Below are positions 305 through 26,853 of a DNA stretch of 64,000 nt, piece by piece. The notes under the pieces were generated by a model. The model was not told the origin of the DNA. It did not search any database and saw nothing but the letters and a program-made list of their open reading frames with translations. The position numbers and the translations under genes were made by a program. The number at the start of each line of letters is the position of its first letter. Within the stretch, counting starts at the first letter, position 1. The DNA comes from Sacculina carcini (lineage: Eukaryota > Arthropoda > Thecostraca > Sacculinidae): contig OU696578.1 in NCBI GenBank assembly GCA_916048095.2, positions 7,628,045-7,692,044 on the forward strand, written 5' to 3'.

Positions 305-463
305 TGTGCGTTAGTATATTAGAGTGCTGCATATCTAGCCAGAGCGGTGTGAGTGAGTGTCGTATTCGCGTGCATATGTATGTCTGTGTGCGAGTGTGTG
401 CATGTTTGCAGCGTCAGCTTGCTGACTCGGCTCGACTTGCATTTGAGCGTTGTGGCAGGTAGT

Positions 464-514
<51 letters not shown>

Positions 515-680
515 ATTTACATGTATGTTGATGTGTGCTTGTGTGCGATGGTCATGAGAAGCCGGTGCAGGGAGAGTTGAATGTGTGTGTTGTCTGTGGA
601 AGGATGGTGTTTGATTGCTGAGCGCTGGTGCATGAAAATACAGGTGAAACGTGGTGCTGCTGTCATCTGACTTTACTACA
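305..680 (+). repeat. 5' LTR of the sense LTR retrotransposon
   Basis: Direct copy of 9131-9538 apart from a shorter (TG)n run at about 462-514. It starts TG and ends CA. It is followed at 681 by AGCTATTTCGGC, the same 12 bases that follow the 5' LTR of the second, - strand element, so this is the likely primer-binding site. It does not begin with the usual TGG of a tRNA 3'-CCA complement. Confidence 0.9.
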
Positions 681-709: not shown

Positions 710-935
710 ATGAGTAATCCTGATCAATCGAGTGGATCGCAGTCAAATTTTGATCTCAAGCTCATCCCCGAGTTTGACGGCTCCGGGAAACAAGATGTTT
801 CGGAATGGCTGGAAAAAGTAGAGCTCGTATGTCAGCTCAAAAATGTGGACGATGTCGCAACTGTCATTGCGCTACGCGTGACAGGAGGGGCGTTTGCGGT
901 GTTTCAGCAGATGAACCCCCTCGATCGGGTTAATT
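710..935 (+). pseudogene. gag: gag, N-terminal part (interrupted)
   Basis: The ATG at 710 opens a Gag N-terminus that resembles the Gag start of the second LTR element (on the - strand from 23458): both have an LIPE-D-G segment followed by SEW/SEWI and a V-x-R-V-T pattern. The frame is interrupted at 935/936 by the P-like transposon and resumes at 5399 after one copy of the 8-bp target duplication. Without the insertion gag would be about 268 codons and shows no other break, so the transposon insertion is the only visible lesion. Confidence 0.85.
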
Positions 936-1092
936 CAACGCCACCTAGATACAAGGCCCTTCCATCCCCTCCCCATGGGGGGTGTTACGTCAGCCCATCC
1001 GTCCTAGCCCTACCTGGGTATCACAGCTCGGCTCACTCAGCTACAAACTCGGCAACTCAGCTACAAACCGATGCTAATGACTCAGCTACACA

Positions 1093-1475
1093 CCGTTGAA
1101 ACGCTGACGCTGCATCGCTGATCACGTGATCAGTTCGTTGTCAGTTCGTCAGTTCATTGTCAGTTCGTGTAGCGTTGCGCGTGTTTGTGTTATTGTGTGT
1201 ATTTGTGGCGTTGCGCATTTTGTGATTTTACGTGTTTTCGCGGTGTTAAGTTGGTTTGTGCTGTTGCGTGCGACGCAGTAACAATCCGTTGAAACGCTGA
1301 CGCTGCATCGCTGATCACGTGATCAGTTCGTTGTCAGTTCGTCAGTTCATTGTCAGTTCGTGGTCAGTTAGTGTAGCGTTGCGCGTGTTTGTGGTATTGT
1401 GTGTATTTGTGGCGTTGCGCGTTTCGTGATTTTACGTGTTTTCGCGGTGTTAAGTGGGTTTGTGCTGTTGCGTGC
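1093..1475 (+). repeat. Subterminal direct repeats of the P-like transposon
   Basis: Two copies of a ~180-bp unit (1093-1271 and 1286-1475) start CCGTTGAAACGCTGACG and end CTGTTGCGTGC. The second has a ~7-base insertion (GTGGTCA) and a few substitutions. Each contains the palindrome CTGATCACGTGATCAG and short GTCAGTTCGT reiterations. In Drosophila P the subterminal DNA holds transposase sites and the promoter. A similar role here is inference. Confidence 0.8.
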
Positions 1476-1705
1476 ATTATATTTTCAATGCGGCGTAGTT
1501 GGTTCGACTTTTTTCTTCTAGTATTGTCGGAGTGAGAGGTAAGTCGACAAATTCATTTGCTCTGCATTTCATATCGTAATAATAACATTATCCATCTCAT
1601 AAAGATATTCTTACCCAATTGCTTGCGAAAATCCAAGTTGCGTTGTGATTGTTTGGTCTATTAAGGTTCAGGTTAAGGTTTTTATTATTGTGGTGTCCAG
1701 GAAAC

Positions 1706-1855
1706 ATGCCAGATAAGTGTTGTGTGCCTGGGTGCAAAGGCAACTACAGTAGCGGCCCAAAAGTGAGCGTTTTCCGTCTACCGAAAGATGAGGCGCTGCG
1801 AAACAAATGGATGAGAGCAATCAAACGTGACATGCCAATAACCTATAACGTCTAT
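1706..1855 (+). CDS. P-like transposase exon 1 (THAP domain, first part)
   Basis: The ATG at 1706 opens 50 codons with the start of a THAP zinc finger: CCVPGC supplies the first two zinc ligands (C-x4-C counting the first), followed by a basic stretch with FRLPKD and a W (WMRAIK), typical of the fold. The exon ends at 1855 before GTAAGT. The frame resumes in phase 0 at 2109 after a 253-bp intron ending CTTCCAG. The splice restores the missing C-x2-H half (VCQNHF), which is strong evidence for the intron. THAP is the sequence-specific DNA-binding domain of P-element transposases and of THAP9. Confidence 0.88.
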
Positions 1856-2108
1856 GTAAGTTTTGACACGTGCAAATTGTGTAAATACGACATGAATGTA
1901 TATGCGCGTATCATTATCGTTTTTATAGATTCAATTTTGTCCATGAGTTTGATTACATTAATAATTATTCTCATGAAAATGTGTCAATTCCTAGATTTCT
2001 TATGCATGCGCTTTCATGTTTTTTTGATTTATTGGCTTTTCCCTATTGGATATCCCTGGGCTAGTCAGAGTGTCTTTATGTTACTCAACCAATAATATAC
2101 ACTTCCAG

Positions 2109-4745
2109 GTTTGCCAAAATCATTTTCGCGAGGAGGATATCGAGCGTAGTACTTCAGCGGTGGATCCAACTACTGGCAAGAGAGTGGAATGCAAACTGGG
2201 CAAGCCACGACTGGCGCCAGGAGCAGTTCCTTGTATTTACCCCAATTTGCCGTCGTATCTGTCTTCATCGTCATTGTCTTCACGGAAATCAAGGGACAGT
2301 AAGAGACAGCGTCTCGAGGAGCAGCAGCTGGAAAAGGCTATTCAGATGAGTGCCACAGAACACTCTGAATATCTAGAGAGTAGGAGGATTGACAGTTTCG
2401 AAGCGTTAAAAACAAAATTCGACAGCGTCGTTAACAGGGACTATTGGAACTTTGTTGACGTAGATTCGAAAATCGTAATTTCTCATGTCACAACATGTAA
2501 CGTTCGCGTCCAACATTGCGTTACAATTAAGGAAGATCTAACCATTTCTGTATTTGTGGAAGGCGCACAAATATTCGATGATGCATTTGCTAAAGAATTA
2601 AAGACTCTCGATGATTTGCAAAAAGTTCTGGATAAGGTTTCTTCGTTTCAAAGCACATATGATTCACCAGATGGTCACATTGCTTTGATTCAGTTGGTTT
2701 TGACTCTGTTGACACCGCTGCTCAATTGTGGGTACAAGTATGAGTGTGTGATCGAATTTGTCTGTGAGCAGCTGCGGATCCTTTTAGGCAAACATCCAAA
2801 GTACTCAGTGCATTTCACAGTGTTTTCTTCGCTGTTATACAGCCTTTCACCTTGTGCGTACAGGTTTATTCGAAGCTCATGTAGCATTCTGCTGCCTAGT
2901 TATTCGACTATACGCCGTATCAACCTAACATACGACGTAAATCCACTGAAAGAGCAAGTCCCCTCACACTTCTTGTCCTACATAAAACAAAAACTGCAGT
3001 ATCTTTTACCTGAGGACAAAAAAGTTTCGCTGTTGGTCGATGAAATTCACTTGCAGCCATCTTTTGATTATAAAGGTGGGAATATTGTTGGATCGTCGTT
3101 TGATGGTAGTGGTGCGGCGACCAGTGCTTGTGTATTCATGATTAGTAGTGTTCTGAGTAAATTCAAAGACGTAGTGCACATATTGCCGGTGAGAACACTG
3201 AAAGGCGATGTTTTGCACCGATTCATTCGTGAAATTATCATACGTCTGGAACAACTTGGATTCATGGTAATATCGGTAATAACGGATAACAATTCTGTGA
3301 ATCGCAAAGCAATGTCATTGTTCCGTAGTCCTCCCGGTCTTTCCATTGTGTACCAACATCCGTCTTGTTCCGATCGTCCGCTTTTTTTTCTATTCGATAC
3401 TGTGCATATATTGAAATGTGTACGGAACAACTGGCTGAATATAAAGGATTCTAGGAAGGCCTTCATTTTTCCGCATTTCTCGTTGACCGATAATTTCATG
3501 GTAGCATCATTCACAAGTATTCGTAAACTGCAATTTGTCGAGTCAGAATCTTTGGTAAAGTTTGGTTATGGCCTAACAGTGAAAGCTGTAAACCCTTCCA
3601 ATCTAGAACGTCAAAATGTTAAGCTCGTTTTGAAAATTTTCAGTGAGTATGTGATTCAAGCACTCAAATCTCTGGGCGCCAGTAAGCAACTAGAGTACGC
3701 CGAAGGAACTTCACATTTTCTAAGCATTTTCTTACGATGGTGGACAGTATGCAATGTTAAAACACCGAATAAGGGCAAACGGTTAAATAACATGTATTGT
3801 CATCCGCTAACAGATTCAGAAAACGATGCGAGGTTTTTATTTCTTGACAAATTTTTGCAATGGCTAGATCATTGGAACTCAAACAATGCGATGGTGGGAT
3901 TGACGAAAGAAACATTTTCGGCGCTTCATCACACAACATACGCCCTAAGTGAACTCACTAAATTCTGTATTCGTGAACTGGGAATGTTGTACATTCTGCC
4001 TGGCAAATTCCAGACGGATTCTTTGGAAGATCGGTTCGGCCAATATCGACGTTTATCCGGCTGTAATTACGGTATATCCACTAGGCAAATTTTTGAAAGC
4101 GAGAACAAAATAAGAGTCCGTAGTGTAACCGATTTGAGGCTCCCCATTGCCAATAATCACGTGGATTTTTCCCATGTCGATTTTTCAAATCTTCCTGACT
4201 GGCATTCTGACTGTGTGCGGGACGCTCCCCGGAAATTCATAATTACTATATCCGACGAAGACATTTCAGATTGCAGGGAATATTTGCCTGTTCTAGTTTA
4301 CATTGGAGGTTATTGCTGTTTTTCAGTTCTTCGGAGGTCAAATTGTTCGGCCTGTAAGCAATTTCTTGTGGCACCAGACGAGAATACCCAAGCATACCGT
4401 TTTTCGTATGTGAAGGGCATTGATCGTGGGTGTTTGTTCTATCCCGGTGATGTAGTAGTGGATATTGTCATGTTTTGTTATTTAACAGTAAATAAATGTG
4501 TTTGTGTTTCCGATTTTCTCACATCGAATGACCAACGGTGCATTGCTATTTCACATTGCTTAGAAATGATTGAGGATCATGCCATAGAGTTTAATGAACC
4601 ATTCTGTTCGGCACATGATATGAAGAATATCATCGAGAAAATTGTTTGGACTTCAGTAAATATTTTACTGAACAATTTTTGTTCTAAAAAAAATTCCCAG
4701 GCGCAGTCTCGTGTTAAACACAGGAAACTCGAAACATTTTCATGA
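2109..4745 (+). CDS. P-like transposase exon 2 (THAP end and catalytic region)
   Basis: 878 codons follow exon 1 in phase 0, giving a 928-residue transposase ending at TGA 4743-4745. It starts with VCQNHF (C-x2-H of THAP, residues 51-56). A charged, coiled-coil-like stretch rich in R, K, Q and E follows at about residues 110-150. Candidate catalytic acids are D361 (LLVDEIHL), D443 (VITDNN) and E690 (SLEDRFGQYR), in the order expected for the RNase-H-like P family. FDTVHILKCVRNNW resembles the conserved H-L-K-x-x-R-N segment. Near the C-terminus YIGGYC and SNCSACK match the Cys-bearing tail of P/THAP9 proteins. No stop or frameshift is visible. The exact catalytic assignment is inference. It is much longer than the 751-residue Drosophila transposase. 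Confidence 0.88.
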   Translation, partial: VCQNHFREEDIERSTSAVDPTTGKRVECKLGKPRLAPGAVPCIYPNLPSYLSSSSLSSRKSRDSKRQRLEEQQLEKAIQMSATEHSEYLESRRIDSFEALKTKFDSVVNRDYWNFVDVDSKIVISHVTTCNVRVQHCVTIKEDLTISVFVEGAQIFDDAFAKELKTLDDLQKVLDKVSSFQSTYDSPDGHIALIQLVLTLLTPLLNCGYKYECVIEFVCEQLRILLGKHPKYSVHFTVFSSLLYSLSPCAYRFIRSSCSILLPSYSTIRRINLTYDVNPLKEQVPSHFLSYIKQKLQYLLPEDKKVSLLVDEIHLQPSFDYKGGNIVGSSFDGSGAATSACVFMISSVLSKFKDVVHILPVRTLKGDVLHRFIREIIIRLEQLGFMVISVITDNNSVNRKAMSLFRSPPGLSIVYQHPSCSDRPLFFLFDTVHILKCVRNNWLNIKDSRKAFIFPHFSLTDNFMVASFTSIRKLQFVESESLVKFGYGLTVKAVNPSNLERQNVKLVLKIFSEYVIQALKSLGASKQLEYAEGTSHFLSIFLRWWTVCNVKTPNKGKRLNNMYCHPLTDSENDARFLFLDKFLQWLDHWNSNNAMVGLTKETFSALHHTTYALSELTKFCIRELGMLYILPGKFQTDSLEDRFGQYRRLSGCNYGISTRQIFESENKIRVRSVTDLRLPIANNHVDFSHVDFSNLPDWHSDCVRDAPRKFIITISDEDISDCREYLPVLVYIGGYCCFSVLRRSNCSACKQFLVAPDENTQAYRFSYVKGIDRGCLFYPGDVVVDIVMFCYLTVNKCVCVSDFLTSNDQRCIAISHCLEMIEDHAIEFNEPFCSAHDMKNIIEKIVWTSVNILLNNFCSKKNSQAQSRVKHRKLETFS

Positions 4746-5398
4746 GTTGTGCATGAGTGATACCTTCGGCGGCTCCATAAGGCTCCGTATCGGCTCTGCT
4801 TATTACCCATCAGCAGGCGCATTATATTGCATTTTCAGCAGGGAATTCCCCACATGTTAACAACCGCTGCTCTATGTGGTATTTCGTTTTCATTCACCAT
4901 CATATTTATCATTGTGCGTTTGTCAATGCTTGAATTTATTCTCAGTTGTTCGCTTTGTGTTTCGCACTGTTGTATTCCTGAAATGTTGTAAACACTTTTT
5001 GTCGACATGTTGATGAGCTTGAACATGTGAATGATGAATTCAATAGCGTGCCCGTATCTGAATTCACCGCTGCAAGTAATTTATGAGACATGTCGCATTG
5101 TTTTCTATATTTGGTCCATGATTTGCTGTTGTTTTTTGTCATGATTGGTTCAATACATGTTCGTAAACCTTCTATTTTGTTTGTATTAGGTTGTAAAAAG
5201 AATTGTTAGACATTATACAGCTTCTAAATGCAAGGTTTCATTTAAAACTGGGAGTATTTGTGAAAATAATGCACCGGCGTACGCATAATATCAACTAACA
5301 GTGCACCGCAACACATACACACTGCACCGACGTTGGCCGAACGCTGTGACGTCACAAAATCGTGAAACGGCCTTGTATCTAGGTGGCATTGGTTAATT

Positions 5399-5979
5399 GC
5401 GACAAACTAAAGGCTGAGTTGAAAGCTGCATTTGGCGCGGACCGGTTTACCGCCTATGAACAGTTCACGCGCCGCAAACTGTACTCTGGCGAGTCACCGG
5501 ACATATATCTGGCGGATTTGAGACGTTTGGCTGCGCTATTCGGTGGCGTACCAGAGACAGCGATCACGTGCGCGTTTGTTGCAGGGCTGCCTTCCAATGT
5601 GCGTCAGCTTTTGAGGGCGGGCTCACGCGTGGAAGTCCTGGACACTTATCAAGTTCTGGCTCATGCTCGCATTCTGTTGCAGGAGGACCCTCAGGCGTCA
5701 TTTGTGCAATCAGGACTTGGTGCTCGAACAGCGACCGTGCCAATCAACAGGAATACTCAGCTACGTTGTTTTGCTTGTGGCGGAACAGGACATTTTGCCA
5801 GATATTGTCGGGATGGAGCTGTGAGCTTTAGAGGAAGAACAATGAGGAGAGGCGCTGTGGCCCGTGGCAGTGTGGTGCGGTGTCATCGCTGCAATGAAGT
5901 CGGACATTTCTCTCGAGAGTGTTCGGGAAACGACCAAGGGGAGAGGCCGTTTGCGCAAGCGTCTTCTCCCGCTCTCTAA
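5399..5979 (+). pseudogene. gag: gag, C-terminal part with two zinc knuckles (interrupted gene)
   Basis: Continuation of gag after the nested transposon. It contains a capsid-like segment with AAFGADRFTAYEQF, then two CCHC zinc knuckles: CFACGGTGHFARYC (about 5770-5810) and CHRCNEVGHFSREC (about 5881-5922). These bind nucleic acid during packaging. The ORF ends at TAA 5977-5979 and overlaps pol, which is in the -1 frame. The slippery heptamer at 5925-5931 lies just after the second knuckle. On its own this fragment has no natural start; read-through from the nested element is not expected. Confidence 0.88.
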
Positions 5980-8900
5980 ATTCTGCGCTTCCTACTGTTT
6001 CAATGTGTGTTAACGGCGAGCGGACGACAGCATTGGTGGACACTGGATGTTCGATTTGTGTAGCTCATGTGTCTATCTGCAGTGAATTCAGACCCACAGA
6101 AACAAGAATTGTGACAATGTCAGGGCAGCGGCAAAGGTGCAAAGGGATTGGAAATGTGAGAGTATGTATTGATGGAGTGAATGGGGTGCGACTGTTGAAA
6201 GTGTTGGTGGTGGCCATTCGACCTTTGGGTTTCGAGTTTATCATGGGGATGAACGGTGTTGAAATGTTGGGAGGTGTGACGGTCAGCTCCTCGCGTGTTG
6301 TTCGGTTCGGAGCCCAAGGTCTTGAGGTAGTGAGTCGTCCTACGCTAGGGGTGTGTCTCGGTGCTAGAGATAAGGTTCCAGATGAATGTGACGGTGATTT
6401 GAGCCGTGCAGTTCATGAGCACTGCGCTGAAAAACGGGATGGCAAGTCGAACAGAACGGACTGTGCTCCAGTCTCGCATGCAAAAATTGTTCGGATTGAA
6501 GAGAAAGATTTTGTTGTGGTGTTTGACCCTGTCAAACGCACGTGGACGGCTGAGTGGAAGTGGTCAGATGCTGAAGAGCCCGGAGTGTTGTACAATCGTG
6601 TCGGGCAGTATTCTATGTCGCACGATGTCCGGTCTGCATTTGAGGAGGAACTGGAAGAGTGGATACGTGAGGAGTGGCTGATTCCATATGATGAGCGGAA
6701 GCATGGTCCTGCAAAAGGTCTTGTCCCGCTGATGGCGGTGCCACAAAGAAACAAAGTGAGACCAGTGATGGATTTGAGGCAAGTGAACGAGCACATTGAC
6801 GTACACACTAGAGACGCTGATGTGTGCGCAGATCGAGTGCGTGAATGGAGACGACAGGGCAGGAACGTGTCAACGCTTGATTTGAAAAAAGCGTACTTGC
6901 AGATTCGGGTGTCTGATAAGATGTGGCCATATCAAACGGTGATTGTGAAGGGTCAAAGATATTGCCTAACGCGTCTGGCGTTTGGATTGAACGTCTCACC
7001 GTTAGTCATGAGAGCTGTGCTGCACTTTGTGTTGTCAGCCGACCCCGAAGTTGAGAGAGGCACTTCGGCTTACGTCGACGATATCTTGGTCAATGAGGAT
7101 GTTGTCAAAGTGGAGCGAGTTGAGAGTCACTTGAACCGATATGGACTCGTTTGCAAGGCAAGTGTGAAGGTGACGGATGGTGCGCGACTCTTGGGAATGA
7201 GAGTCTGGGGAGAGGGTGGTGCGCTGTCGTGGAGGAGAGACGGGGAGGTTTGTGAAATGCCCGAAATGATAACAAGAAGATCTGTGTTTTCGTTTTGTGG
7301 GAAATTAGTCGGTCACTACCCCGTGTGTGGATGGCTGAGGGTGGCAGTAGCTTTTATCAAGCGGCTCACGAATGCGCACACGAAGGGCTGGGACGATCCA
7401 GTTGTGAACGATCACGTGAAGACTTGTTTAAAGGAGGTGCTGAGAGTTGTAAAGGATAATGATCCAGTTTGTGTCAGATGGAATGTGGAAGGACACGAGG
7501 CGAAGGTTTGGGTTGACGCGAGCTCGCTCGCCATGGGTGTTCGTCTTGACGTTGACGGTAACATAATTGAGGATGCAAGTTGGCTGAGATCTGACAGTGC
7601 GACGCACATCAACATGGCGGAATTAGACGCACTGATAAAAGGACTGAATATGGCCTTGGTGTGGAAGATGCGGAAAATCGAAATTGTTACCGATTCTTTG
7701 ACTGTTCATCGATGGGTCACTGATTGTTTGTCAGGTAAGAGACGACTGCGAACGAAGGCTGCAGGAGAACTGCTGGTGAGAAGGAGACTTGACATTGTGG
7801 CCGCGTTGGTGGAAGAATACAACCTGGATCTTTCAGTTACGTTAGTGGCTTCGGCACTAAACAGAGCGGACGGCATGACGCGCGTGCCTCAACGGTGGCT
7901 GAAGCTATCAACTGACTGCTTCAGTGACTTAAAAACGTCGTTCGTCGGGTGCGGAATTGCTGAGTGTGAAGACGATGGGTGCTCGTCAGCAGAGGTGATT
8001 CGTGATGTTCATCATCTGATGGGACATCCTGGAGCTCGGAGGACGTTACAGTGTGTCAGACGGACGCGACGGAATGTGAGCTCGCGAGAGGTACGGGAGG
8101 CTCTAAAGCGGTGCCAAATATGTCAATCGGTAGATCCAGCGCCGGCAAAATGGAGATCTGGTCATCTGGAGGTGGAGCGCGTGTGGCAACGAGTTGCTAT
8201 CGACATTACCCACTGGAAAGGATTGTCGTGCTTGACCATGGTGGATTGTGGACCGTCACGGTTTGCAATATGGCGGCCGTTGCGCATGCAAAATGCCGCG
8301 TGTGTCATCGAGCAACTTGAGAGTGTTTTCTGCGAGCGTGGACCTCCGGAAGAGCTTTTCGGCGATAACGATACGGCTTTCAGAAGTAAGCTCTTCGCGG
8401 CTTTTGCTGAAAGATGGGGAGTCAGACTGAGGTTCAGGTGTGCGTATGTACCAAGTGGTAACGGGGTGGTGGAGCGTAACCATCGCACCGTGAAGGTTAT
8501 AGCGGCTAGAAAAGGGTGTTCTCTGGCCGAGGCAGTATACTTGTATAACGTGACGCCGCGTGGTAGCGGATCAGACAGTTGTCCAGCCGCTGAACTGTAC
8601 AAATACGCAGTCAGAGTGCGAGGCATTGATAAGGTTTCAACGCTGACGGGCGAATCAGAAGATTGTGTGTACAAGAAGGGAGACTTGGTGTGGGTGAAAC
8701 CACCAAACGTGCGATGTGATCAGAGATACGGTAAGGGTGTGGTCACTGGTGTGGTTTCGCATCAATCTGTGGAGGTGGATAACGTTCCGCGCCACGTGCG
8801 CGATCTGCGACCTCGTGATCAGTCTCATAACGAGGCTGAACAACCAGAAGTTCTAGATGACAACGCGGATGATGAAATGTTCATCACTCTGCCTCATCGA

Positions 8901-8990
8901 CGGAGTCGCGAGGAATGTGACGCTTTATCGGGTTTTCAGCCCCGCAGATCAGCGAGGCTGATTGAGAAGCGGCAGCGCGCCGTCCGATGA
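5919..8990 (+). CDS. pol: pol polyprotein: protease, reverse transcriptase, RNase H, integrase
   Basis: This is an uninterrupted frame of about 1,020 codons, reached by -1 frameshifting from gag. Domains in order are: aspartic protease with DTG at 6039-6047; reverse transcriptase with VRPVMDLRQVN, LDLKKAYLQI, LAFGL and the catalytic YVDD at 7071-7082; RNase H with WVDASS (about 7509) and MAELDA; integrase with an HHCC zinc finger (HHLMGHPG about 8010, then CQIC about 8110), the catalytic D in IDITHW (about 8200), DNDTAF (about 8360) and E in VVERNHRT (about 8466). A basic tail (PRRSARLIEKRQ) ends the protein. All expected catalytic acids are visible, so the enzyme may be functional. The track start at 5919 is not an initiation codon; translation enters by frameshift near 5925-5931. 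Confidence 0.92.
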   Translation: MFGKRPRGEAVCASVFSRSLNSALPTVSMCVNGERTTALVDTGCSICVAHVSICSEFRPTETRIVTMSGQRQRCKGIGNVRVCIDGVNGVRLLKVLVVAIRPLGFEFIMGMNGVEMLGGVTVSSSRVVRFGAQGLEVVSRPTLGVCLGARDKVPDECDGDLSRAVHEHCAEKRDGKSNRTDCAPVSHAKIVRIEEKDFVVVFDPVKRTWTAEWKWSDAEEPGVLYNRVGQYSMSHDVRSAFEEELEEWIREEWLIPYDERKHGPAKGLVPLMAVPQRNKVRPVMDLRQVNEHIDVHTRDADVCADRVREWRRQGRNVSTLDLKKAYLQIRVSDKMWPYQTVIVKGQRYCLTRLAFGLNVSPLVMRAVLHFVLSADPEVERGTSAYVDDILVNEDVVKVERVESHLNRYGLVCKASVKVTDGARLLGMRVWGEGGALSWRRDGEVCEMPEMITRRSVFSFCGKLVGHYPVCGWLRVAVAFIKRLTNAHTKGWDDPVVNDHVKTCLKEVLRVVKDNDPVCVRWNVEGHEAKVWVDASSLAMGVRLDVDGNIIEDASWLRSDSATHINMAELDALIKGLNMALVWKMRKIEIVTDSLTVHRWVTDCLSGKRRLRTKAAGELLVRRRLDIVAALVEEYNLDLSVTLVASALNRADGMTRVPQRWLKLSTDCFSDLKTSFVGCGIAECEDDGCSSAEVIRDVHHLMGHPGARRTLQCVRRTRRNVSSREVREALKRCQICQSVDPAPAKWRSGHLEVERVWQRVAIDITHWKGLSCLTMVDCGPSRFAIWRPLRMQNAACVIEQLESVFCERGPPEELFGDNDTAFRSKLFAAFAERWGVRLRFRCAYVPSGNGVVERNHRTVKVIAARKGCSLAEAVYLYNVTPRGSGSDSCPAAELYKYAVRVRGIDKVSTLTGESEDCVYKKGDLVWVKPPNVRCDQRYGKGVVTGVVSHQSVEVDNVPRHVRDLRPRDQSHNEAEQPEVLDDNADDEMFITLPHRRSREECDALSGFQPRRSARLIEKRQRAVR
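5925..5970 (+). promoter_or_regulatory. -1 ribosomal frameshift signal (slippery site and hairpin)
   Basis: G GGA AAC (5925-5931) is in the gag frame as X XXY YYZ, a canonical -1 slippery heptamer. After a 7-nt spacer comes a hairpin: 5939-5945 (GGGAGAG) pairs with 5964-5970 (TTCTCCC), G5946 can pair with C5963, and 5948-5952 pairs with 5957-5961 around a GCGC loop. Pol is open in exactly the -1 frame. The same heptamer is present at the matching place in the second element (22775-22781, - strand), which argues for function. Confidence 0.85.
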
Positions 8991-9130: not shown

Positions 9131-9289
9131 TGTGCGTTAGTATATTAGAGTGCTGCATATCTAGCCAGAGCGGTGTGAGTGAGTGTCGTATTCGCGTGCA
9201 TATGTATGTCTGTGTGCGAGTGTGTGCATGTTTGCAGCGTCAGCTTGCTGACTCGGCTCGACTTGCATTTGAGCGTTGTGGCAGGTAGT

Positions 9290-9364
<75 letters not shown>

Positions 9365-9538
9365 GTGTGTGCATTTACATGTATGTTGATGTGTGCTTGT
9401 GTGCGATGGTCATGAGAAGCCGGTGCAGGGAGAGTTGAATGTGTGTGTTGTCTGTGGAAGGATGGTGTTTGATTGCTGAGCGCTGGTGCATGAAAATACA
9501 GGTGAAACGTGGTGCTGCTGTCATCTGACTTTACTACA
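9131..9538 (+). repeat. 3' LTR of the sense LTR retrotransposon
   Basis: Matches 305-680 base for base outside the (TG)n tract (about 9290-9371), which is about 30 bases longer here. The polypurine tract AGGGGAGAG lies immediately upstream and the target duplication AGTAC follows at 9539-9543. The 3' UTR between the pol stop and this LTR (8991-9120) has no further ORF. Confidence 0.92.
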
Positions 9539-9611
9539 AGTACACAGATACATATGTGCACATGTATGTTTATATCAGTCTGTCTGTGTGTGTGTGTGTG
9601 TGTTTGTGCAG

Positions 9612-9752
9612 GTTCTAGTGGTCGGGTGCGCGTGTTGGACAGTGGTTACTTGCTGGTGCAGTCGGTGGCTGATAGCGATCAGGGCCGGTACAGCTGCGTG
9701 GCCAGCAACCAGTACGGACGCGACAGCAGCTCGACCGCACTACAAGTGCTAG
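9612..9752 (+). CDS. Cont: Contactin exon (C-terminal half of Ig5)
   Basis: The acceptor TTTGTGCAG is followed by 141 bp, phase 1 in and phase 1 out, and the donor GTAGTG. It encodes the end of an Ig domain: LLVQSV then D-x-G-x-Y-x-C (DQGRYSC) and VASNQYG, the F and G strands. It joins in phase to the exon at 10755. Counting back from the four FN3 repeats, this is Ig5 of the usual six. The upstream exons (signal peptide, Ig1-4) are outside the window. Just before the acceptor, (TG)n replaces most of the pyrimidine tract, and an LTR element ends 73 bp upstream. Confidence 0.9.
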   Translation, partial: VLVVGCACWTVVTCWCSRWLIAIRAGTAAWPATSTDATAARPHYKC

Positions 9753-9824
9753 GTAGTGAGGGCCTGTTTGTGTTTGTGTGTTTGTGTGTTTGTTTGTGTG
9801 TGCTTGTGTGTGTGTGTGTGTTTT

Positions 9825-10102: not shown

Positions 10103-10754
10103 GGCCGTTAAGCCCATATTTTTATGTAAAATTATATTCCATAATTTCCATGGTGGGCTTAATGGCCAGAGCTATTTCACGAAGAAAAAAATTCAGTCTG
10201 TCAAATTTTTATCGATCCGAAATAACAAGCTTCATTATAGTATCAATTATATCAATGTTAATAAAGTACAAATATGTGCAATAGTTTGATGAGAAATGTA
10301 AATTAACACGTAAATGAAAGGATGGAAGGGATTTTATTCGAGGTACTGTATATATGTGGAACAAACAGAGCTATTGGAAAATACTACCGGAGAACAGATA
10401 ACAAATTCTACTAAAAACCTAGTATTTCACGCCTGTAAAGTGGCATGGGCCTAATGGTCGGGATTTACGGTATGTACGTGTGTTGTTTGTGTATATAGTC
10501 TGAATGTATACGTGTAGAGTATGTATGTGCGTGTGTGTGTATATAGGTGTGTGCCTGTGCTTGTGTGTGTGTGTATATATAGGTGTGTGTCTGTGCCTGT
10601 GTGTGTGTTTGTTGTGGTTGTAGTTGATTGCCAAAAAACCTGAACATCTCAAATTATATATTATATATTAATTTTCCTGGCATAGTCTATCAATATACAC
10701 ACACACATACATTTCTCATACGTGCATGCATGTGTGTGTGTGTGTGTGTGTCAG
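9753..10754 (+). repeat. Contactin intron with TG/TTTG minisatellite
   Basis: Positions 9760-10100 are an almost pure run of TG and TTTG/TGCTTG units, giving spurious long Cys/Val ORFs in all frames. The rest (10101-10754) is AT-rich intron with a second TG-rich patch at 10470-10610 and a (TG)n tract just before the next acceptor. No gene is seen. Confidence 0.85.
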
Positions 10755-10924
10755 CGGCGCCTGTATTCACCGCCCAGCCCGAGGCCAAATTATATCGCGT
10801 GGTGGGTGATCGGGTGCAGTTACAGTGTGATGCACGGGCTGATCCGTCACTTGATCTGTCGTTTGTCTGGTCTCATAACGATCTGCCCGTCGATTACCAC
10901 CACCCAGACTCTCACTATCGCAAG
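10755..10924 (+). CDS. Cont: Contactin exon (N-terminal half of Ig6)
   Basis: 170 bp between TGTGTCAG and GTGAAC, phase 1 in and phase 0 out. The split codon G|CG gives Ala. It encodes the start of an Ig domain: APVFTAQP linker, then RVQLQCDARADP with the B-strand Cys, and the conserved Trp in FVWSHNDLPVD (C strand). The F-strand Cys partner lies in the next exon (16353-16491). The acceptor is a (TG)n tract ending CAG. Confidence 0.92.
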
Positions 10925-12015
10925 GTGAACCACTGTATGTGTGTGCTAGTGTGTGTGTGCTAGTGTGTGTGTGCCCCGGCTGTGCTATACTATTGCTCTG
11001 GTCAACACGATTTTTCTGGCAAAAAGGTTTAAAACAAATTCTGACTACCAAATTCTGACTAAGGTGTTTGTAATCAACCATTTTTATTTACAACCAAAAT
11101 GATACTGATTTTTTCATGTAAAAAGAAAAATTCTGTACGCAGAATTCAAGGTCTGACTTTTATATCGGTTGTATGAGACGACCCACAATTTTTAGGGGTG
11201 ATTTTTTTACTTTAATGGTCGTCTTATACGCCGAAATATACGGTAATTTTGGGCTTCTGATTACGAAAATGAACTAAGATTTTTTCTGTCACATCAGGAT
11301 ATTGCGTTAGATCAGTATCTATTTTTATGAAAATTACTCATCAGCCTATTGAAGGTGTTGAAGCCTATATATTTTGCATATACATAGTGAAGGAACAACA
11401 ACGGCTATAATATTGATGTACAATAAATGAAATACAGTGACTAAATTCGAATATAAAACATAAAAATACATACATGTATATGTATTTATATGATGCACAA
11501 GATCAACGGAAAATTTCAGTTATTTGAATTTTCTTTTCTTGGCTGATTGACTGATGTGCAGCTTCTGGATTATCTCTCATCAAGCTCCAGCAATAATCTG
11601 ACATCATATGTGAGTCCCATCAGCCTTGGTACCGATCTTTTATTGTTTTAACGTCCTGGTGGAGCCGTTCTCCTTGTTCCTCGCTTACATTCCGAATGAT
11701 CTCCGCAAAATTGTCCAAATAGCTGTGTAAATGGTGAACCTTGATACTCATGCTACACCCAGGATCTCGCAGGCTCATTAGTAGCTCTTCCACAATCTCT
11801 TCATAGTTGTTTAATTTCTTATTCCCTAGGAAATTCTGTACCACATTACATTATATATTCCATTACATTATACTTCTGTTTCGTTCCTCTTCTTATCTTG
11901 TTTTATGTGATCACATATAATTCCCAACTCTAATAATGAGTATCAGACACTGGAGAAGCGCGTGTTGGAGTTAGCTCGCAACATGCTGTATGCGCGTGTG
12001 CTGTGCGTGCTCGTG
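10925..12015 (+). other. Contactin intron, first part: repeat fragments
   Basis: This is the start of a 5.4-kb intron. Positions 11051-11242 are a truncated copy of the MITE that is complete at 39493-39933 (shared end GTCGTCTTATACGCCGAAATATACGG). A fragment of the Cys-ORF family lies at 11620-11844 on the - strand. The remainder is AT-rich with no gene recognised. Confidence 0.7.
11620..11844 (-). pseudogene. Fragment of the Cys-ORF repeat family (C-terminal part)
   Basis: A 74-codon - strand frame contains VQNFLGN, EEIVEELL and IKVHHLHSYLDNF followed by SEEQGERLHQD. It closely resembles the C-terminal region of the broken ORF at 45868-46149 (DNFLGN, EEIVHQLLES, LKVHFLHQHL). The family therefore has at least two copies in this window. 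No start or catalytic motif is visible. The function is unknown; I infer mobile-element origin from the repetition and from the terminal repeats around the second copy. Confidence 0.7.
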
Positions 12016-17129: not shown

Positions 17130-17958
17130 GTCAGTCATTTCGCTGTCGTGTGCTGTTCTGTGTGCTATTAGCGCCAATGTGCTTTTGCTTATACCGTGAA
17201 AACCTCTAATTGAACGGCACTTTGATGAATTATTCTCTTTTGGCAATAAATATATGGTAAATATGACTGATTGGTTTTAAGTAGTTAATTTGTGATTAAT
17301 TACCAGTAATTACTGTGTATTTGTGTCTTTTTTAAACTAATATGCATACGTTACCTGGTTCTTTTTCATCGATATAATTTGCCATATCTTCTCAAAATTC
17401 TCACCAGCTAGTAGAAAAATAGAGCGGCACTCTCTAAGTGAATGACATTACGGGGGAAGGTTTGACAAATAGAGCGTTCAAATTGGAGTTTTACGGTATG
17501 ATCATATAAATGTGTTTGTGTTTTTCTAGCCGCCAAATATCACCGTCTATTGTTTATTGTTGATGTTTGGCTGCGTGTATGTCTATGAATGTGTATGTGT
17601 TCAGTTCAGTTCTGTCTGATTTATTGCACTGCTACAATATACTTGCCTATTCTGTGCAAACCATACCAACATTTATATACCGTATTTCCCTCGTATATGA
17701 GAAATTGTAGAAATTTTTAAAAATGAAGAAAGTATGAAATGAAATTGTAGGAAATACACATAATCGTGTCAAAATATTCACTCCCATATTTAAGAGACCC
17801 TCTATTTTTATAATTAAAATTTAGACCAGGATAGTATCTTATACACGGAGAAAATAGTGTATATCACGTATTTCACTTAACTACACACACACACACACAC
17901 ACACTTAGACAAAATGAACACCATATATGTATGTGTGTATGTATGTGTGTGACGTAAG
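17130..17958 (+). other. Contactin intron, no gene
   Basis: AT-rich intron. Positions 17676-17880 contain a degenerate ACCGTATTTCCCTCGTATATGAGA-like segment that may be a decayed relative of the CCGTATATTTCGGCGTATAA MITE. A short (AC)n run at 17883-17904 precedes the acceptor region. Nothing else is recognised. Confidence 0.5.
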
Positions 17959-18209
17959 ACGTGGTATTGGAGCGTGACACAGTGTCTTCATCTTCTTGGC
18001 TGAGCGACGAGCGACGGCTGCAGTTGCGCGAGCTAGCGCCTAATTCACGCTACGAGTTTCGCGTGGCTGCCGCTAATCCGCTGGGCCGCAGTGATTTCTC
18101 GCCGGCGTCGCCCAGCTATCGCACACAGCCGTCGCGGCCGCTGGTCCAAGTGGCGCACATTCGTTCTGGCGGCGGCGGTATGCAGGGCGATCTGGTCATC
18201 GAGTGGCAG
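17959..18209 (+). CDS. Cont: Contactin exon (end of FN3-1, start of FN3-2)
   Basis: 251 bp between ACGTAAG and GTGCGA, phase 1 in (A|AC gives Asn) and phase 0 out. It contains the FN3 signature LRELAPNSRYEFRVAAANP (L-x-P-x-x-x-Y-x-F-R-V-x-A-x-N), then a linker and the first strands of FN3-2 with VAHIRSGGGG, a Gly-rich loop, and IEWQ carrying the conserved Trp. Confidence 0.9.
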
Positions 18210-18563
18210 GTGCGACACCACTCTGTTGTTCTACTGTGCATTGTGTGTGTGTTATCTTGTGTTTGTGTACGTATGTGTGTTATCTTGTGGAATTGTGTGT
18301 GTGTGTTCTTGTGTAATTGTGTGTGTGTGTGTTAACGTGTGTATTTATGTGTGTTTGTATGTTATCATGTATGTTTTGTGTATGTATGTCTGTGTGTATT
18401 TGTGTTGAAACAACCAAACGTCACACAAAAGAAAAAAAACAAAGAAGAAAATAAAATCACCTCAAGCAAAAGCAACCAAACATGACACACACACACACAG
18501 GCACACAGACACATGGAACAACACGATAAGCCAGTGTGTTGGTTGTGTTCGGTGTTGTAACAG

Positions 18564-19856: not shown

Positions 19857-22781
19857 TTAAGATTCACATAAACGACATACTCTCCTCTGCCTAATCCTTT
19901 CGCTTCGTCGCGGCTCAACGTGCGATTCATAGTCTGTTGGATCCGGACTCCTGCGAAATTGAAGGTGCATTGGTGACTCGTCCGAACATTCATCGTGATG
20001 GTGTTGACATTCCCGTTCCAACCTCCGACGAACATCTTTTAGATGATACGGCATGCCATCTACTTCATCCGCATGCTCAGATATATCCGCTGTGACAACA
20101 CCTTTTGCCCATACCTGGTCGCATCTCGTGCCCAGTTTTCCGACCCACACTCTCTCCTGGCTTGTACCCACTAGTTCCTCGTCGTCCTGTCGTTTCTTCT
20201 CTACGATTGATGTCCTTCACTCTGGGAGTGTAACGATAAATACGAGCCATGGGAGTGGTTGACTCACGGACATCATCGGTAGGAGACAATTTGTAGCGGA
20301 ACACCGCTTTCTCCACACTGCACTGACTCCGTGCCGCTATTACCTTCACCGTGAGATGACATCGCTCCACTATGCCATTTCCGTGAGGCTCGTAGACACA
20401 TCGGTACTTGGGAACCGCACCCCAATCAGCTAGAAACACCTTGAACTCGCGAATTCTGAATACTGTTCCATTGTCCAGTAACACCTCAATCGGAGCTCCT
20501 CGTTCCAAGAAAACTGTTCTGAGTAGTTCGATAATGTTCCTGCTGTCCTCTTTCTTCAGCATTTTCCACAGCGCGAAACGGGACGGTCCACAGTCTATTA
20601 CAGATAAATAAATATCGCCTCTAACATGTGTGACATCCATCGCAAGCCTCTCCCAGTTATTTTTCACCGACAAATTTCTATGCCTCCATTTAAGTGGGGC
20701 TGGGTCGATGGAACGACACATCTCGCAAGATTGAACGACGGCTTGAGCTTCCTTTCTGGTTGCCGCTCGATTGGATCTGCGGGCGAAGTACAATGTTCTC
20801 CTGATGCCGGGATGACCTGCTGATTCGTGGATCTTTTTTATTTCCTCTGTGCCCATTTGACCAGATTGACCTGCACAGCAAACTGTTAGGAGTCTGTTCT
20901 GCTTATCGCACATCGCCAGCCACTTTTCCGGTACGCGGGTTATCGCGTCAGAGTGATTTTCAGCAGAACCAACCAATATCACCTCCATATTCAAACCAAG
21001 CTCTTCTTGAATCGCCTTCAGAGTACCAAGTCTCCGCCGAATCAGCAGCTCTCCGCTAGCACGGGTTTTAACACGAGCTTTCCCCGTGAGAGCATCACGC
21101 ACCCAGTGGCAAGCTGTTTGGGAATCTGTGAATATTCGAATCTCTGTCATGCCCCAAGCTGCTGCCAGATTGATGCCCTTCAGAATGGCGTCTAGTTCGG
21201 CTAAATTTATATGGTGGTCGTCCTTGCGCAGCCAGCTAGCGTCCTCAATCACCATTCCATCAATCTCCAAAACCACACATATTGCCAACTGACTAGCATC
21301 TACCCAAACGTCAACTTTCTCCCTTCAACTCTCCACAGACCATGCGCAGCGTCCTTTTTCTCAATTTTCTCTTTATAAAGGCGAAACACGTTCAAAGTAC
21401 GGTTGTCGACTTCTTCATCCCAGGATTTAGCCGATTCACTTCCCACTCTCTTGACAAATGAGGAAGCGACTCTCATACAGCCACAGACGGGAAGGTGCCC
21501 AATTGCTTGCCCGCAGAATGCAAATATCTTCCGTTTCGTGAGTGGCTCCTCAATGTCATCCACATCATTATCCCTCATCCAGACCAGTTGTCCTTGATCT
21601 TGAAGTAATCGTAAACCTAGTACCCTCCATGATGGATCAGGTCGACTCACGGGCTTGCATAACAGACCATATCTCAGCATATGGCTGCTAACTTTTTCTG
21701 CACTCAGAATAGATTCATCTACGAGAATGTCGTCAATGTACGACGAGGTGGCCGTTTGGACACCCTGATCTTGCGCCAATGCAAATTCCACAATCGACTT
21801 CATAATTATAGGAGCTGCACTGAGACCAAATCCAAGTCTGGTTAAGCAGTATCTAGTTCCTCGGACAATAACGGTATGATATTTCCATAACGACGGGTCC
21901 ACTTCTATTTGCAAATACGTTCTCTTGAGATCCAAAAGTGCCACATTATCTTCTCGTCTTCTCCAATCGCGAAGTTTCTGATGACAAACGTCCACCTCTG
22001 CTGAGTGCACCTTAATGTATTTATTCAGCTGGCGAAAATCCATAACTGGACGTACTTTCGATTTGTTTTTCTGCGTTACCGCCATGAGCGGAATCAAACC
22101 CTTTGCTGGTCCATGAACGCCCTCATCGAATTCAACCAACCAATCCTCAGCAATCCACGCTTTCAATTCTGCGTCAAACTCTTCTCGGGAACTCGAGGCA
22201 ATCGCATACTCTGAAATGTGATTGGGGAGCACTTCCGGGTTCGCTATCCACTTCCAGCTCACACGCCAAGCTTTTTTGGTCCCACTAAAATACGCCACAA
22301 AATCTTTGCCTTGAATTTCAGCAGTAACATCTGACACGGCCGCTACTTCAGTTCTTGTCCCACGATCCGGTGGTACACGACCTGCGCCGTCCTTGTCAAT
22401 GCTGGTAACACAGAGTGTCTTGTCAATACAAAAGCCTCCCATGGCAGCCACACTATCAAGTGCTTGGATAAAATCGGCTCCAACAGGTCGATGATTCACT
22501 ACAATAGCGTCAACGTAAAAGCCGAGACCGTCTTCCACATATACATACACATTGCTGATACCGGCACACAACATCTTGTCCCCGCTGATGGTCACGAGCG
22601 AAACCTCACACCGTCTCACTCGACCCCGACAGAGCCGCTCATTCACAATACTCCTTGTGCATCTAGTATCAAGTAGAGCATGACACCTTACACCATTCAC
22701 GGTTGTCTTCAGCATCACTGGCGCCAAACTCGAACACGCGGAGGAGAGGCTGGCGCTGATGACTCTTCTTGTTCGTTTCCC
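19857..22781 (-). pseudogene. pol: pol of the - strand LTR element, two frameshifts
   Basis: Three successive frames (to 21300, 21288-20077, 20171-19857) together cover the same domains as the intact pol. The protease site has DTRC in place of the DTG-Cys of the other copy. The RT has VRPVMDFRQLN and YIDD. RNase H and integrase follow (HESAGHPG, CEMC, MDVTHV, DNGTVF, IVERCH), with a basic tail (PRRSERIRQRR). The first shift falls near 21310 between the RT-linked tether and RNase H; the second near 20100-20170 at the C-terminus. The protease change and the frameshifts indicate an inactive copy. Confidence 0.85.
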
Positions 22782-23458
22782 GGACAATGTGACTGGTAGT
22801 GCCCACGAGCTCCACATCTGAAGCAGACAGGTCCGACAATTCCTCCTTCTGAGTTTCGTTGATCGTTGCGAAGTGAGCAGTCCCGCGCAACATGACCGAG
22901 TCTGCTGCATATGAAACATCTGATTTGTGAACTACTTTTTGGTCGACGCAACGGCTCTGACGCTAACAACCCTATTGTAGCGCCCCCATTTTCCGCTAAA
23001 ACAACACGCGCTCTGTTGACGACGTCTTCGATGGGCATATCGTCCAGCTTGGCATTTGCCCGCAGGGTGTGCCGAACCGATTGTGGTAATGCTGCCACAA
23101 AGGCGCATCTGATGGACACTGGATCTGTGCTATTACACCTGGCACCAAACTTTCGCAGATCTGACACCAACACATCAACACACTCATTGGGAGCAAGCCG
23201 CCGATTGATGAGTTGATCATAAGCCGCAAAAGTGTCCATACCAAAAGCTCTTTGCAGGGCCCGCTCAATCTTACTCATATCCAGCTGGTCTTCATCTGAT
23301 AGCCCGTCAATTACGCTATAAGCATTCCTTGTGACCCTCATACCTGCAACTTGAGCCACATCTCTCACACCGCGCAGCCGGCACGACTTCTTCACTCTGC
23401 TGATCCATTCTGAGGGATCCTGGTTTCCGTCGTATTCAGGAATGAGCCTCATGTCCAT
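22715..23458 (-). CDS. gag: gag of the - strand LTR element
   Basis: A 247-codon intact frame starts MDMRLIPEYDGNQDPSEW. Capsid-like region: LQRAFGMDTFAAYDQL. Two zinc knuckles follow: CFICSRLGHVARDC and CFRCGARGHYQSHC. Directly after the second knuckle comes G GGA AAC in the gag frame (22775-22781 on +), where ribosomes would shift -1 into pol. The domain order matches the interrupted gag of the sense element. Confidence 0.85.
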   Translation of the reverse strand: MDMRLIPEYDGNQDPSEWISRVKKSCRLRGVRDVAQVAGMRVTRNAYSVIDGLSDEDQLDMSKIERALQRAFGMDTFAAYDQLINRRLAPNECVDVLVSDLRKFGARCNSTDPVSIRCAFVAALPQSVRHTLRANAKLDDMPIEDVVNRARVVLAENGGATIGLLASEPLRRPKSSSQIRCFICSRLGHVARDCSLRNDQRNSEGGIVGPVCFRCGARGHYQSHCPGNEQEESSAPASPPRVRVWRQ

Positions 23459-24059
23459 TGTTGACTCAGCGATGGCCGAAATAGCTTGTAAGTTCTGCTT
23501 CGCCCCCGCTATGGTGAAGAGTCACAGACAATGGATGATGACGACGATGGATGATGTATTTGATGAAGTAATTTGAAGCAATGACGCTGTACCAAACAAT
23601 ATACACATTCAATACCCGCACGCACAATCACACAACGCCCGTTCACACAGCCAACACGATAACACCACTTATTCACACTGATAATCGCTGACACACACTG
23701 CCTATCGCTCACAGTGCTCGATACATACACGCGTTTCCACACTTCAACGACACACGCGCAGACACACACACACATATGACCATTCACACTAACACAATGC
23801 ACAACTACAACTGTAGAACGCACGAACAGGAATCCATATATACATACGCATATACTCACTCACGCTCAAACGCAATAAACTACGCACACAAACACCCACA
23901 TGGTACTAAATATGTTTAACTATACACTAAATAGCATGGTACAATCCTTTTTTATTTGTTTGTGCAAAGTGTAAAAAACATGTTTTTATTTTATTTATTA
24001 TTATCATTATTATTAATTACAGGCAAATCCAGTAACATGGGAAGAGTGCAAGCACTATC

Positions 24060-24569: not shown

Positions 24570-25250
24570 TCAATTCCGCTCTTTCAGTAGCATTTCATTT
24601 ACTTTGGCCTTGAATTTGTTCAAATTGTTCTGCGAGAAAGCCTCCTCCTTCAACGTGTTCCAAGTAGGCCACTCTTCCACAGTGGCCGGAAGCAAGCAAC
24701 GTCGAAATTGCTTTGTACGACAACGAATTGGAGCCATGCACTGGGAATGCTGATTGGATGTAAACCGTGTGCTTCTTGCTGCCACGAAATCATCAGGAAT
24801 GGACTTGCTCATCGGATGATGGTCGTTGTGCTTGATCTTGTGTAGCATGCACACGCTGCTGACCTTTCGACGATGGCAAAGATCACCAAGAACCAAGTCA
24901 CCACAGAGGAACATGCAAGTTCTAACAACTCTGTTGATGAGATTGAGGTGACAATCCGCAGCAGAAGTCCACACGGGGGCGCAGTACTCCAGAATTGGCA
25001 AAATGGAACAGCGAAAACAACTTTTTGAGATTGTGCTGCTACCGAACATCCGATATGCCTTTCTTATAATTCCCAGTTTCCGCGATACCCAACAAACCAG
25101 CTTCGGAATGTGACTCTCAAATGTCAGTTTTGAGTCTACATGCACTGCCAGTATTTTGAGCTCATCACACATGCTGAGTTGGGCGTCATTTATGAGGACA
25201 GTTCCATGTGAAGATTGAACGGTACGTGACCTATAAACCAGCAAGCTTTC
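24570..25250 (-). pseudogene. LINE copy 1: 5'-truncated, C-terminal RT region
   Basis: The 224-codon frame (25244-24570) covers the region after the RT active site: CDELKILAVHVDSKLTFESH, ILPILEYCAPVW and a basic C-terminal tail. It is highly similar to 27528-27100 of LINE copy 2. Similarity stops at about 25250, typical of 5' truncation during target-primed reverse transcription. It is inactive. Confidence 0.85.
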
Positions 25251-25511
25251 AGTAGATTCGTGTGTTTAGTAGTCGCGTGTGCATTTCAGGGGGCGTTTGA
25301 AGCCACATTCTTTCATTTGCGTGCAAGTTGTCTCACATTCTACGTACGTCTATTTGTAGTATTTGATCAAGTTCGAGCACGCTACATCGCACATGCTGTT
25401 CGCGGAATGAGCTGCATGAATATATTTGGTGTGTCCACGCATGTGTGTTCAGTTGAGTCGGCGATTGCTTGCTCGCTTCTTGCTGCTTCGCTATTTGTAC
25501 CAATCACAAAG

Positions 25512-26042
25512 ATGGTTCGTTCTACGACAAGACAACTGACAGTTTTTCTGGCCATACTTTACTTCGCCAATTGGCCGAAAGTGATTCACGGATTAACTGT
25601 CATAGTCCTTCATTCAAGTGAAATTTGTCAAGTAATGATTTCAAATGGCACGTTTCTGAATGGTTGTAGTTGTTTGAAGAACAATTGCCAATCTTCCTCT
25701 GTGAACGACCACTGTTCTTGTAACAGTGTGACAGTCAATGACGTAGAAGAATGCCAACCAACTGTTTCACTATCAACATTAGGAAATTACACGGTAAAAG
25801 GTGAGCATACTAATGTGGCTCATGTAAAAGCTAGAATGAAGAGTTTCAGTGGCAAAACGACGGTCATGGTCGTACTGAAAGATACCAATGAGGGAACAGT
25901 GACAGGAGAATGTGAATGCTCCAAAGTAACCGGCGATGGAGGTGGTTCTCAATGCGAAACGAACACAGATTTGGGGGATGCATGCCTGTGTATATCTCAG
26001 AATGACAAGTGTTGGCCTTTTGTCTGGTTTGTCCCCATCTAA
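25512..26042 (+). CDS. Putative secreted cysteine-rich protein, single exon, 176 residues
   Basis: The ATG at 25512 has a favourable context (AAAGATGG). The N-terminus MVRSTTRQLTVFLAILYFA fits a signal peptide (basic, then hydrophobic), with possible cleavage near IHG. The mature part has 13 Cys, many in C-x-C pairs (GCSC, HCSC, GECEC, ACLC), and two N-glycosylation sequons (NGT, NYT). The frame is open further upstream to 25260, but without a better ATG context. It lies in the contactin intron between two LINE copies, on contactin's strand. A - strand frame (26399-25779) overlaps its 3' half, and only one is likely real. I recognise no family. It may be a host gene, a captured gene or chance. 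Confidence 0.45.
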   Translation: MVRSTTRQLTVFLAILYFANWPKVIHGLTVIVLHSSEICQVMISNGTFLNGCSCLKNNCQSSSVNDHCSCNSVTVNDVEECQPTVSLSTLGNYTVKGEHTNVAHVKARMKSFSGKTTVMVVLKDTNEGTVTGECECSKVTGDGGGSQCETNTDLGDACLCISQNDKCWPFVWFVPI

Positions 26043-26738
26043 GCCTTTTTCGACAAGCAACGTGCCGCTTGTCGTGACGACATGTGGCGCATCTGCAATT
26101 GGCGCGGTGGAGGGCGTCTTTTCTGGTGTTTTCAATTGAAACTCTCTGACCGCTGTGGTCCTGTTGTTCAACTCTTGTAATGTTTTCGATATTAATTCGG
26201 TGATGGTTGACACTTTTTGTACACTTGCACATTCTGGTTGCATTGTTCCGTATCTCTTGATGAAGGTGTTGGTTGGGTCTATATTGGGTATGCCGTGTGT
26301 GTTGGTGTATTTTGGCCGTGTGTGTTCTGCTGTGCTGAACTGGTCTATAATAAAGTCTGCCTTGAAATCACCGTCTCTACTGAAATCAGCTACGCACAAA
26401 TGATCAAATTAAGTGTCGGTCTGTTGTGAAGGGTGACATCGCGACCCTTCGTTTGACCAAAGTTTAAATCGTATTTTCTGTTCGACAGTGACCAACCGAG
26501 TCTTGGGAGGTCGGAGTTTTCTTGTGCAAAACCCGCCGTAGCATGGATATGCCAGAAAAACAAAATATAATAATATTTGTCGAATTTGTCTTAAATTGTA
26601 TGTATAACGGCGCAGACATGAATACGCAATATATTTAACACAGGGAACAAAAAACTCGAAAACACTCGATAACCCGCAATGGTCACCCTCAAAACACAAC
26701 GTCTCACCGCCGTACAATCAATCACACGCACAATGCGC

Positions 26739-26840: not shown

Positions 26841-26853
26841 GCATCTCCGCACA

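Follow-up and report, generated by a model that had tools for sequence, protein, structure and literature searches.

Structure of the P-like element

The window analyzed here is a stretch of 64,000 nucleotides from contig OU696578.1 of Sacculina carcini, and near its beginning lies a transposon that resembles the P element of Drosophila and that interrupts a long terminal repeat (LTR) retrotransposon. The element carries a spliced gene for a THAP-type transposase between short terminal inverted repeats (TIRs), and it is flanked by a target site duplication (TSD). Its components are as follows, with the basis for each given after the semicolon.

929-935, no strand: left TSD, GTTAATT, 7 bp; sequence and comparison of TIR pairs
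936-5391: P-like element, bounded by TIRs
936-958, plus strand: left TIR, CAACGCCACCTAGATACAAGGCC; inverted-repeat search, genome counts, and TIR-pair comparison
1093-1475, plus strand: subterminal direct duplication (copies at 1093-1271 and 1286-1475, 92%) in which TCAGTTCGT motifs recur; sequence
1706-1855, plus strand: transposase exon 1, encoding the THAP zinc finger part with C5, C10, P26, and W35; Pfam THAP, E 3.9e-9
1856-2108, plus strand: intron, GTAAGT...CAG, 253 bp; splice borders, and a sibling gene split at this codon position by an in-frame GT-AG intron
2109-4745, plus strand: transposase exon 2 including the stop codon, encoding the remaining THAP part (C52, H55, F56, P91), a helix-turn-helix (HTH), and a split RNase H-like domain; Pfam and structure-database matches
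5369-5391, minus strand: right TIR, CAATGCCACCTAGATACAAGGCC (minus-strand reading); inverted-repeat search, genome counts, and TIR-pair comparison
5392-5398, no strand: right TSD, GTTAATT, 7 bp; sequence and comparison of TIR pairs

The two TIRs, whose presence was proposed in a preliminary description of this DNA, agree at 22 of their 23 terminal bases, with a single C/T difference. The same description gave an 8-bp duplication and placed the end of the element at 5390. This must be corrected to the 7-bp duplication GTTAATT and to an end at 5391. The sequence GGTTAATT seems to be duplicated over 8 bp because the base 5′ of the left 7-mer is G and the last base of the element is also G. The correction rests on 30 TIR pairs, comprising that of the window, 19 in fetched loci (L039 and L041-L058), and 10 pairs of 60-base ends; two of the 30 duplicate sites already counted (L048/L049 and L043/L057, judged by their flanks). 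An exact 7-bp duplication together with symmetric CAAYG(CC) ends is found in 29 of these pairs, L042 being the only one without a matching duplication, and none of the 30 has an 8-bp duplication beyond symmetric ends. The earlier asymmetric 8-bp framing fits 11 of them. A third long copy of the element (L040) stands outside this set because its right TIR carries one mismatch; its flanks read GCTGAGC at both ends. The 26 distinct 7-mer duplications tend toward an odd palindrome, approximately SCTNAGC.

The transposase

Splicing of 1706-1855 to 2109-4745 across GTAAGT...CAG borders yields 928 amino acids with no stop, as had been predicted. All eight signature residues of the THAP domain (C2CH plus P, W, F, and P, as given in PMC4168063; here and below, a PMC number refers to excerpts of the paper concerned) were recognized by eye at C5, C10, P26, W35, C52, H55, F56, and P91. 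Exon 2 matches the Pfam TNP-like RNase H domain (E 1.3e-15) and includes the catalytic residues D361, D443, and E690, as well as D480-x2-H483. The only solved structure matched is that of the Drosophila P transposase (6p5a, E 2.5e-6), whose catalytic residues are D230, D303, and E531 (PMC7776569); the alignment places D303 and E531 opposite D443 and E690 of the window protein. D361 was assigned from its motif and is also conserved in the protein of a sibling P-like family.

The gene of this sibling family is likewise divided into two exons, by an in-frame intron of 180 bp, and encodes 928 residues at 58% identity to the window protein. The proportions of nonsynonymous (pN) and synonymous (pS) differences between the two genes are 0.29 and 0.81, respectively, the latter being saturated, and therefore the protein has been under selection. 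The sibling family (L012-L014) has the TIR CAACGCCACCTAGATACAGGCC, with 365 exact matches in the genome (169 + 196) and none for the control. Exact inverted words failed to reveal these TIRs, which were obtained by comparing two near-identical copies.

A THAP domain could also indicate another superfamily that bears one, such as Kolobok, which targets TTAA, and the duplication GTTAATT indeed includes this tetranucleotide. However, TTAA occurs in none of the other duplications among the 30 TIR pairs, and the P transposase is the sole solved relative found. Kolobok was rejected on the first of these grounds, and assignment to any such superfamily is highly improbable.

Copies in the genome and the age of the insertion

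The 19-nt core of the TIR has 180 exact matches in the genome (89 + 91), with none for the reversed control. Two other long copies of the element were recovered. One, on C12, is 99.3% identical to that in the window over 4.47 kb, with 6 mismatches, 27 gap positions, and two amino-acid differences. The other, on C7 (L040), shows 97.6% identity across 4.15 kb, is less similar at its left end, and has an open frame that is changed at the exon junction and the C terminus. The genome yields at least 58 transposase matches when pieces are counted, and among those listed all except the three long copies are at most 95% identical, many being partial or broken. No match was found in the viral contigs searched.

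The preliminary description had allowed that the TIRs might lack a second copy or that the gene might prove to be a single-copy, domesticated one. The number of TIR cores, the 99.3% identical copy, and the numerous transposase matches speak otherwise on both counts. Some properties of the protein would suit a domesticated host gene of the THAP9 type with incidental flanking repeats, given that it is long and intact and has THAP9-like spacing in its active site. However, the gene is bounded by exact TIRs and duplications, has a 99.3% identical copy on another contig, and breaks a retrotransposon that is unbroken at that place in the five other copies read. This multi-copy, TIR-bounded state rules out a domesticated gene, to which we assign next to no probability.

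Exon 2 is missing from all 18 short copies fetched (L041-L058, 1.9-3.1 kb), and a trace of exon 1 persists in 16. Identity to L041 is 93.9-97.5% for those of 3 kb. The short copies have the appearance of a non-autonomous family, which the window transposase may also move. Open reading frames (ORFs) were listed for six of the short copies, and in three (L041, L043, and L054) an ORF of 142-169 amino acids resembles, by eye, the end of the reverse transcriptase of a long interspersed nuclear element (LINE). Another short copy, L051 (C3:4341820-4345730), lies inside an apparent terminal repeat of the sibling family and has the duplication CCTAGAT.

The retrotransposon that received the element has the following parts.

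300-304, no strand: left 5-bp target duplication AGTAC of the retrotransposon; sequence
305-680, plus strand: left LTR; 375 of 376 aligned bases the same as in the right LTR, plus a 32-bp gap in a TG run
710-935, plus strand: 5′ part of the gag frame, broken by the P-like element; ORF with ATG
5399-5979, plus strand: 3′ part of the gag frame, with CCHC zinc knuckles; Pfam
5898-8990, plus strand: pol frame with reverse transcriptase, RNase H, and integrase (the protease match is weak, E 0.04); Pfam
9131-9538, plus strand: right LTR; LTR alignment
9539-9543, no strand: right duplication AGTAC of the retrotransposon; sequence

The LTRs are nearly identical, as had been reported, in that their single substitution and the gap both fall within the TG run, and AGTAC stands on either side. 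A search with the 242 gag bases preceding the insertion matched 39 places in the genome including the window, 10 of them at full score. Five retrotransposon copies among the 38 other places listed were read, and all five have the exact uninterrupted (empty) site. Because the P-like element is inserted in a retrotransposon with near-identical LTRs, and because its site is empty in the other copies read, it is younger than an already young retrotransposon. The same order of events had been proposed in the preliminary description.

Despite this recent mobility, the window copy might itself be non-autonomous, silenced by a residue difference or by regulation, while another copy supplied the transposase. 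Residue 47, which lies between the THAP residues W35 and C52, is Y in the window copy and D in both other long copies. However, this position is outside the eight THAP signature residues (PMC4168063), and although this reading retains some weight, we consider it unlikely.

Head-to-head TIR tips as candidate excision scars

P-type enzymes cut one strand within the terminal repeat, 17 nt in from the end (PMC7776569). If such a staggered cut is followed by end joining, then two tips placed head to head between duplications are expected to be left behind. A genome search for paired 9-nt tip cores in this arrangement, 0-30 nt apart, returned 382 matches, with none for the reversed control, whereas gaps of 31-60 nt returned 105. 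The 50 wider-gap matches that were listed include 22 repeated units from C10:3.3-4.0 Mb as well as several nested tips. Because the C10 units also hold shorter gaps, the count of 382 includes copies.

We scored individually 44 of the first 50 of the 382 matches, the other six being clustered or contained within another match. Both tips are complete in 38 of the 44. These complete scars have an exact 7-bp duplication in 16 cases, an exact 8-bp duplication in four, a duplication with one mismatch in eight, and none in 10. When the flanks were re-paired at random, there were no exact matches and approximately 0.6% with one mismatch. The 76 tips are mostly 17 or 18 nt long (51), the remainder being 13 nt (nine), 15-16 nt (nine), or longer (seven, of 19-21 nt).

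A strict pattern made from the end pair of the window element itself, which demands at least 17 nt on both sides and permits longer tips, defined a set of 16 window-type scars, in which L150 and L151 are a duplicated pair and L138 is the same as L111, already read. Of their 32 tips, 28 are 18 nt long, four are 17 nt long, and none are longer, even though the TIRs extend to 23 nt. Only the upper limit on tip length is firm, because the strict pattern is blind to tips shorter than 17 nt. An exact 7-bp duplication flanks 12 of the 16 scars; one has an exact 8-bp duplication, two have one mismatch, and one has none. Mispaired flanks match in four of 240 combinations, with the duplicated pair included. 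The simplest reading of these sites is that they are traces of P-style excision, in which the cut would fall 17-18 nt inside the end.

A different origin would be possible if the paired tips were tiny miniature inverted-repeat transposable elements (MITEs) that had transposed as such, in which case they would be uninformative on the cut. A miniature element would likewise have both tips present and a frequent duplication, and some copying is evident both in the C10 composites and in several duplication-free scars (L095, L104, L108, L124, and L127), whose flanks are similar by eye and appear to represent one repeat that has been copied. However, the fillers between tips vary among sites, copied scars excepted, and often replicate pieces of the tip. 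Furthermore, the tips mostly end at 17-18 nt (51 of 76, and 32 of 32 under the pattern requiring at least 17 nt) despite a TIR of 23 nt, and gaps of 31-60 nt are far fewer than shorter ones (105 versus 382), with 22 of the 50 listed coming from the one C10 region. We therefore view a MITE origin as improbable and favor excision.

Some loci hold more elaborate arrangements. TIR tips are in tandem or clustered approximately 20-22 nt apart in L085 (C3:4429260-4429530), L088, L089, and L090, with five consecutive tips in L085, as if insertion and excision had recurred at one place. At C10:3.3-4.0 Mb, composites of TIR tips are repeated across several hundred kilobases, and these are perhaps a repeat that has grown from excision scars.

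Interpretation

The element has a THAP domain with its C2CH residues plus P, W, F, and P, an RNase H-like core that carries the DDE and D(2)H motifs, and TIRs with 7-bp duplications (7 or 8 bp being usual in the superfamily), and by these conclusively tested features it fits the P superfamily. Its description as P-like and apparently intact is likewise sustained by the TIRs, the open 928-amino-acid frame, and the conserved catalytic residues. We estimate a probability of roughly 0.88 that it is a cut-and-paste transposon of the P superfamily, apparently autonomous and inserted recently, and that members of its group have been excised in P fashion. In the mechanism that we propose from these genomic sequences, the spliced THAP/RNase H-like transposase would bind the element ends, for which the subterminal duplication at 1093-1475 is a candidate binding region. 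It would then make a staggered cut, with one strand severed at the outer tip and the opposite strand approximately 17-18 nt into the terminal repeat. At its new target, the freed element would be joined with a stagger of 7 bp, and the broken donor site would be rejoined with a short filler. The window transposase presumably makes these cuts, and tip length may report the stagger of the cut. The near-identical copies, the open frame, and the recent insertion suggest that the family could be active at present.

Several observations weigh against this interpretation. The match to the Pfam model for the P-element HTH scores 20.8 bits, under the curated cut-off of 23 bits. Of 11 proteins scanned with the Pfam TNP-like_GBD (GTP-binding) model, seven match it (best E 4.4e-6), and no match to it was found in the window protein at E 0.1. 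In addition, a profile of 11 sequences (the window protein and ten relatives, several of them partial) weakens the match to 6p5a to E 7.8e-4. Among the scars, 10 of 38 have no duplication, several of these being copies of one amplified repeat. Most of the scars read have tips of related families rather than of the window element, and the strict pattern recovers only 16 sites, or 15 after the duplicate is merged.

A more far-reaching proposal is that the element represents a clade with a variant P-type transpososome, having a 7-bp target stagger and an 18-nt donor cut, whose geometry is directly recorded by natural scars and whose excision is frequent enough that scars may rival intact copies. 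We advance this tentatively, at slightly less than even odds. The target stagger and donor cut are 8 and 17 in Drosophila P versus 7 and 18 here, and both total 25. What appears to be new is the genome-wide set of head-to-head TIR tip pairs as apparent excision scars. If the scars do record cut length, then the generality of the P mechanism could be tested in a young, multi-copy, non-dipteran family. Such a family might also provide naturally occurring, active P-type transposases. Searches of an open-access library listed no paper describing this element, nor any that counted scars of P-like elements across a genome.

Comparison with known P-like systems

According to the preliminary description, dipterans are the only group from which active P-like elements are well known, and this is not supported by the literature on zebrafish and THAP9 (PMC7776569, PMC10983969). 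Mobile P-like elements occur in zebrafish, and THAP9 genes are present in vertebrates and Ciona; human THAP9 excises and transposes Drosophila P elements, whereas zebrafish THAP9 gave excision and no integration in its authors' assays (PMC7776569, PMC10983969). Thus, P-like elements outside flies are already known in print.

The P transposase stands apart from other characterized cut-and-paste enzymes in its long staggered cut and its use of GTP (PMC7776569). The window element resembles Drosophila P (6p5a, 6pe2) in that its transposase is RNase H-like, aligns at the D and E residues, and matches the THAP and P-type HTH models, and probably also in its long staggered cut, which is 17 nt in P (PMC7776569). 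In contrast to P, it has a 7-bp rather than an 8-bp duplication and two exons, and the tips of its window-type scars are mostly 18 nt long, one more than in P. A canonical P element was rejected as an identification, given that an 8-bp duplication is found in none of the 30 TIR pairs and an exact one in only four of 38 and one of 16 scars. The P element tip starts with CA, as does the TIR here, and the rest of the P TIR sequence differs. Duplications of the 1360 element are likewise mostly 7 bp long.

Galileo is a P-superfamily element of Drosophila, and its duplications are mostly 7 bp as well (PMC2775673, PMC4168063). The two elements share an odd palindromic target (GTANTAC in Galileo, approximately SCTNAGC here), repetitive terminal or subterminal DNA, and DDE and D(2)H motifs (PMC2775673, PMC4168063). 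They differ in that the TIRs are 23 bp here and very long in Galileo, the target motif is another one, and the host here is not a fly. Galileo was accordingly rejected: its duplication length fits, but its GTANTAC motif and long repetitive TIRs do not.

Zebrafish Pdre2/zfTHAP9 has its catalytic residues at D347-D434-E679, a spacing close to that of D361-D443-E690 here (PMC10983969), and it also has internally deleted relatives in its genome. Unlike the window element, Pdre2 has an 8-bp duplication and a 13-bp TIR, and here two long copies are almost identical.

Other features of the genome and window

TTAGG arrays are abundant, with 20,354 overlapping matches in the genome against five for the reversed control, and those listed on C1 are internal; a search of the genome for TTAGGG arrays found none. 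TTAGG without TTAGGG fits an arthropod other than a fly, a hint that the internal position of those arrays weakens. COX1 was not found in a genome search.

Elsewhere in the window, a second LTR retrotransposon with several frames (gag knuckles, reverse transcriptase, and integrase) lies on the minus strand at 19860-23521. LINE fragments occupy 24573-29391, also on the minus strand, with a reverse transcriptase match at 27754-28479 (E 3.4e-27) and an endonuclease-like match below the cut-off at 28591-29391, and they are adjoined by a tRNA-Val at 29425-29497. Stretches resembling FN3 domains are present at 17958-18332 (just under the Pfam cut-off) and at 33423-33761, and immunoglobulin-like stretches were noted by eye at approximately 9640-9760 and at 10628-10960. 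These stretches suggest that the LTR element carrying the P-like insertion lies in or near a gene of the cell-adhesion type.

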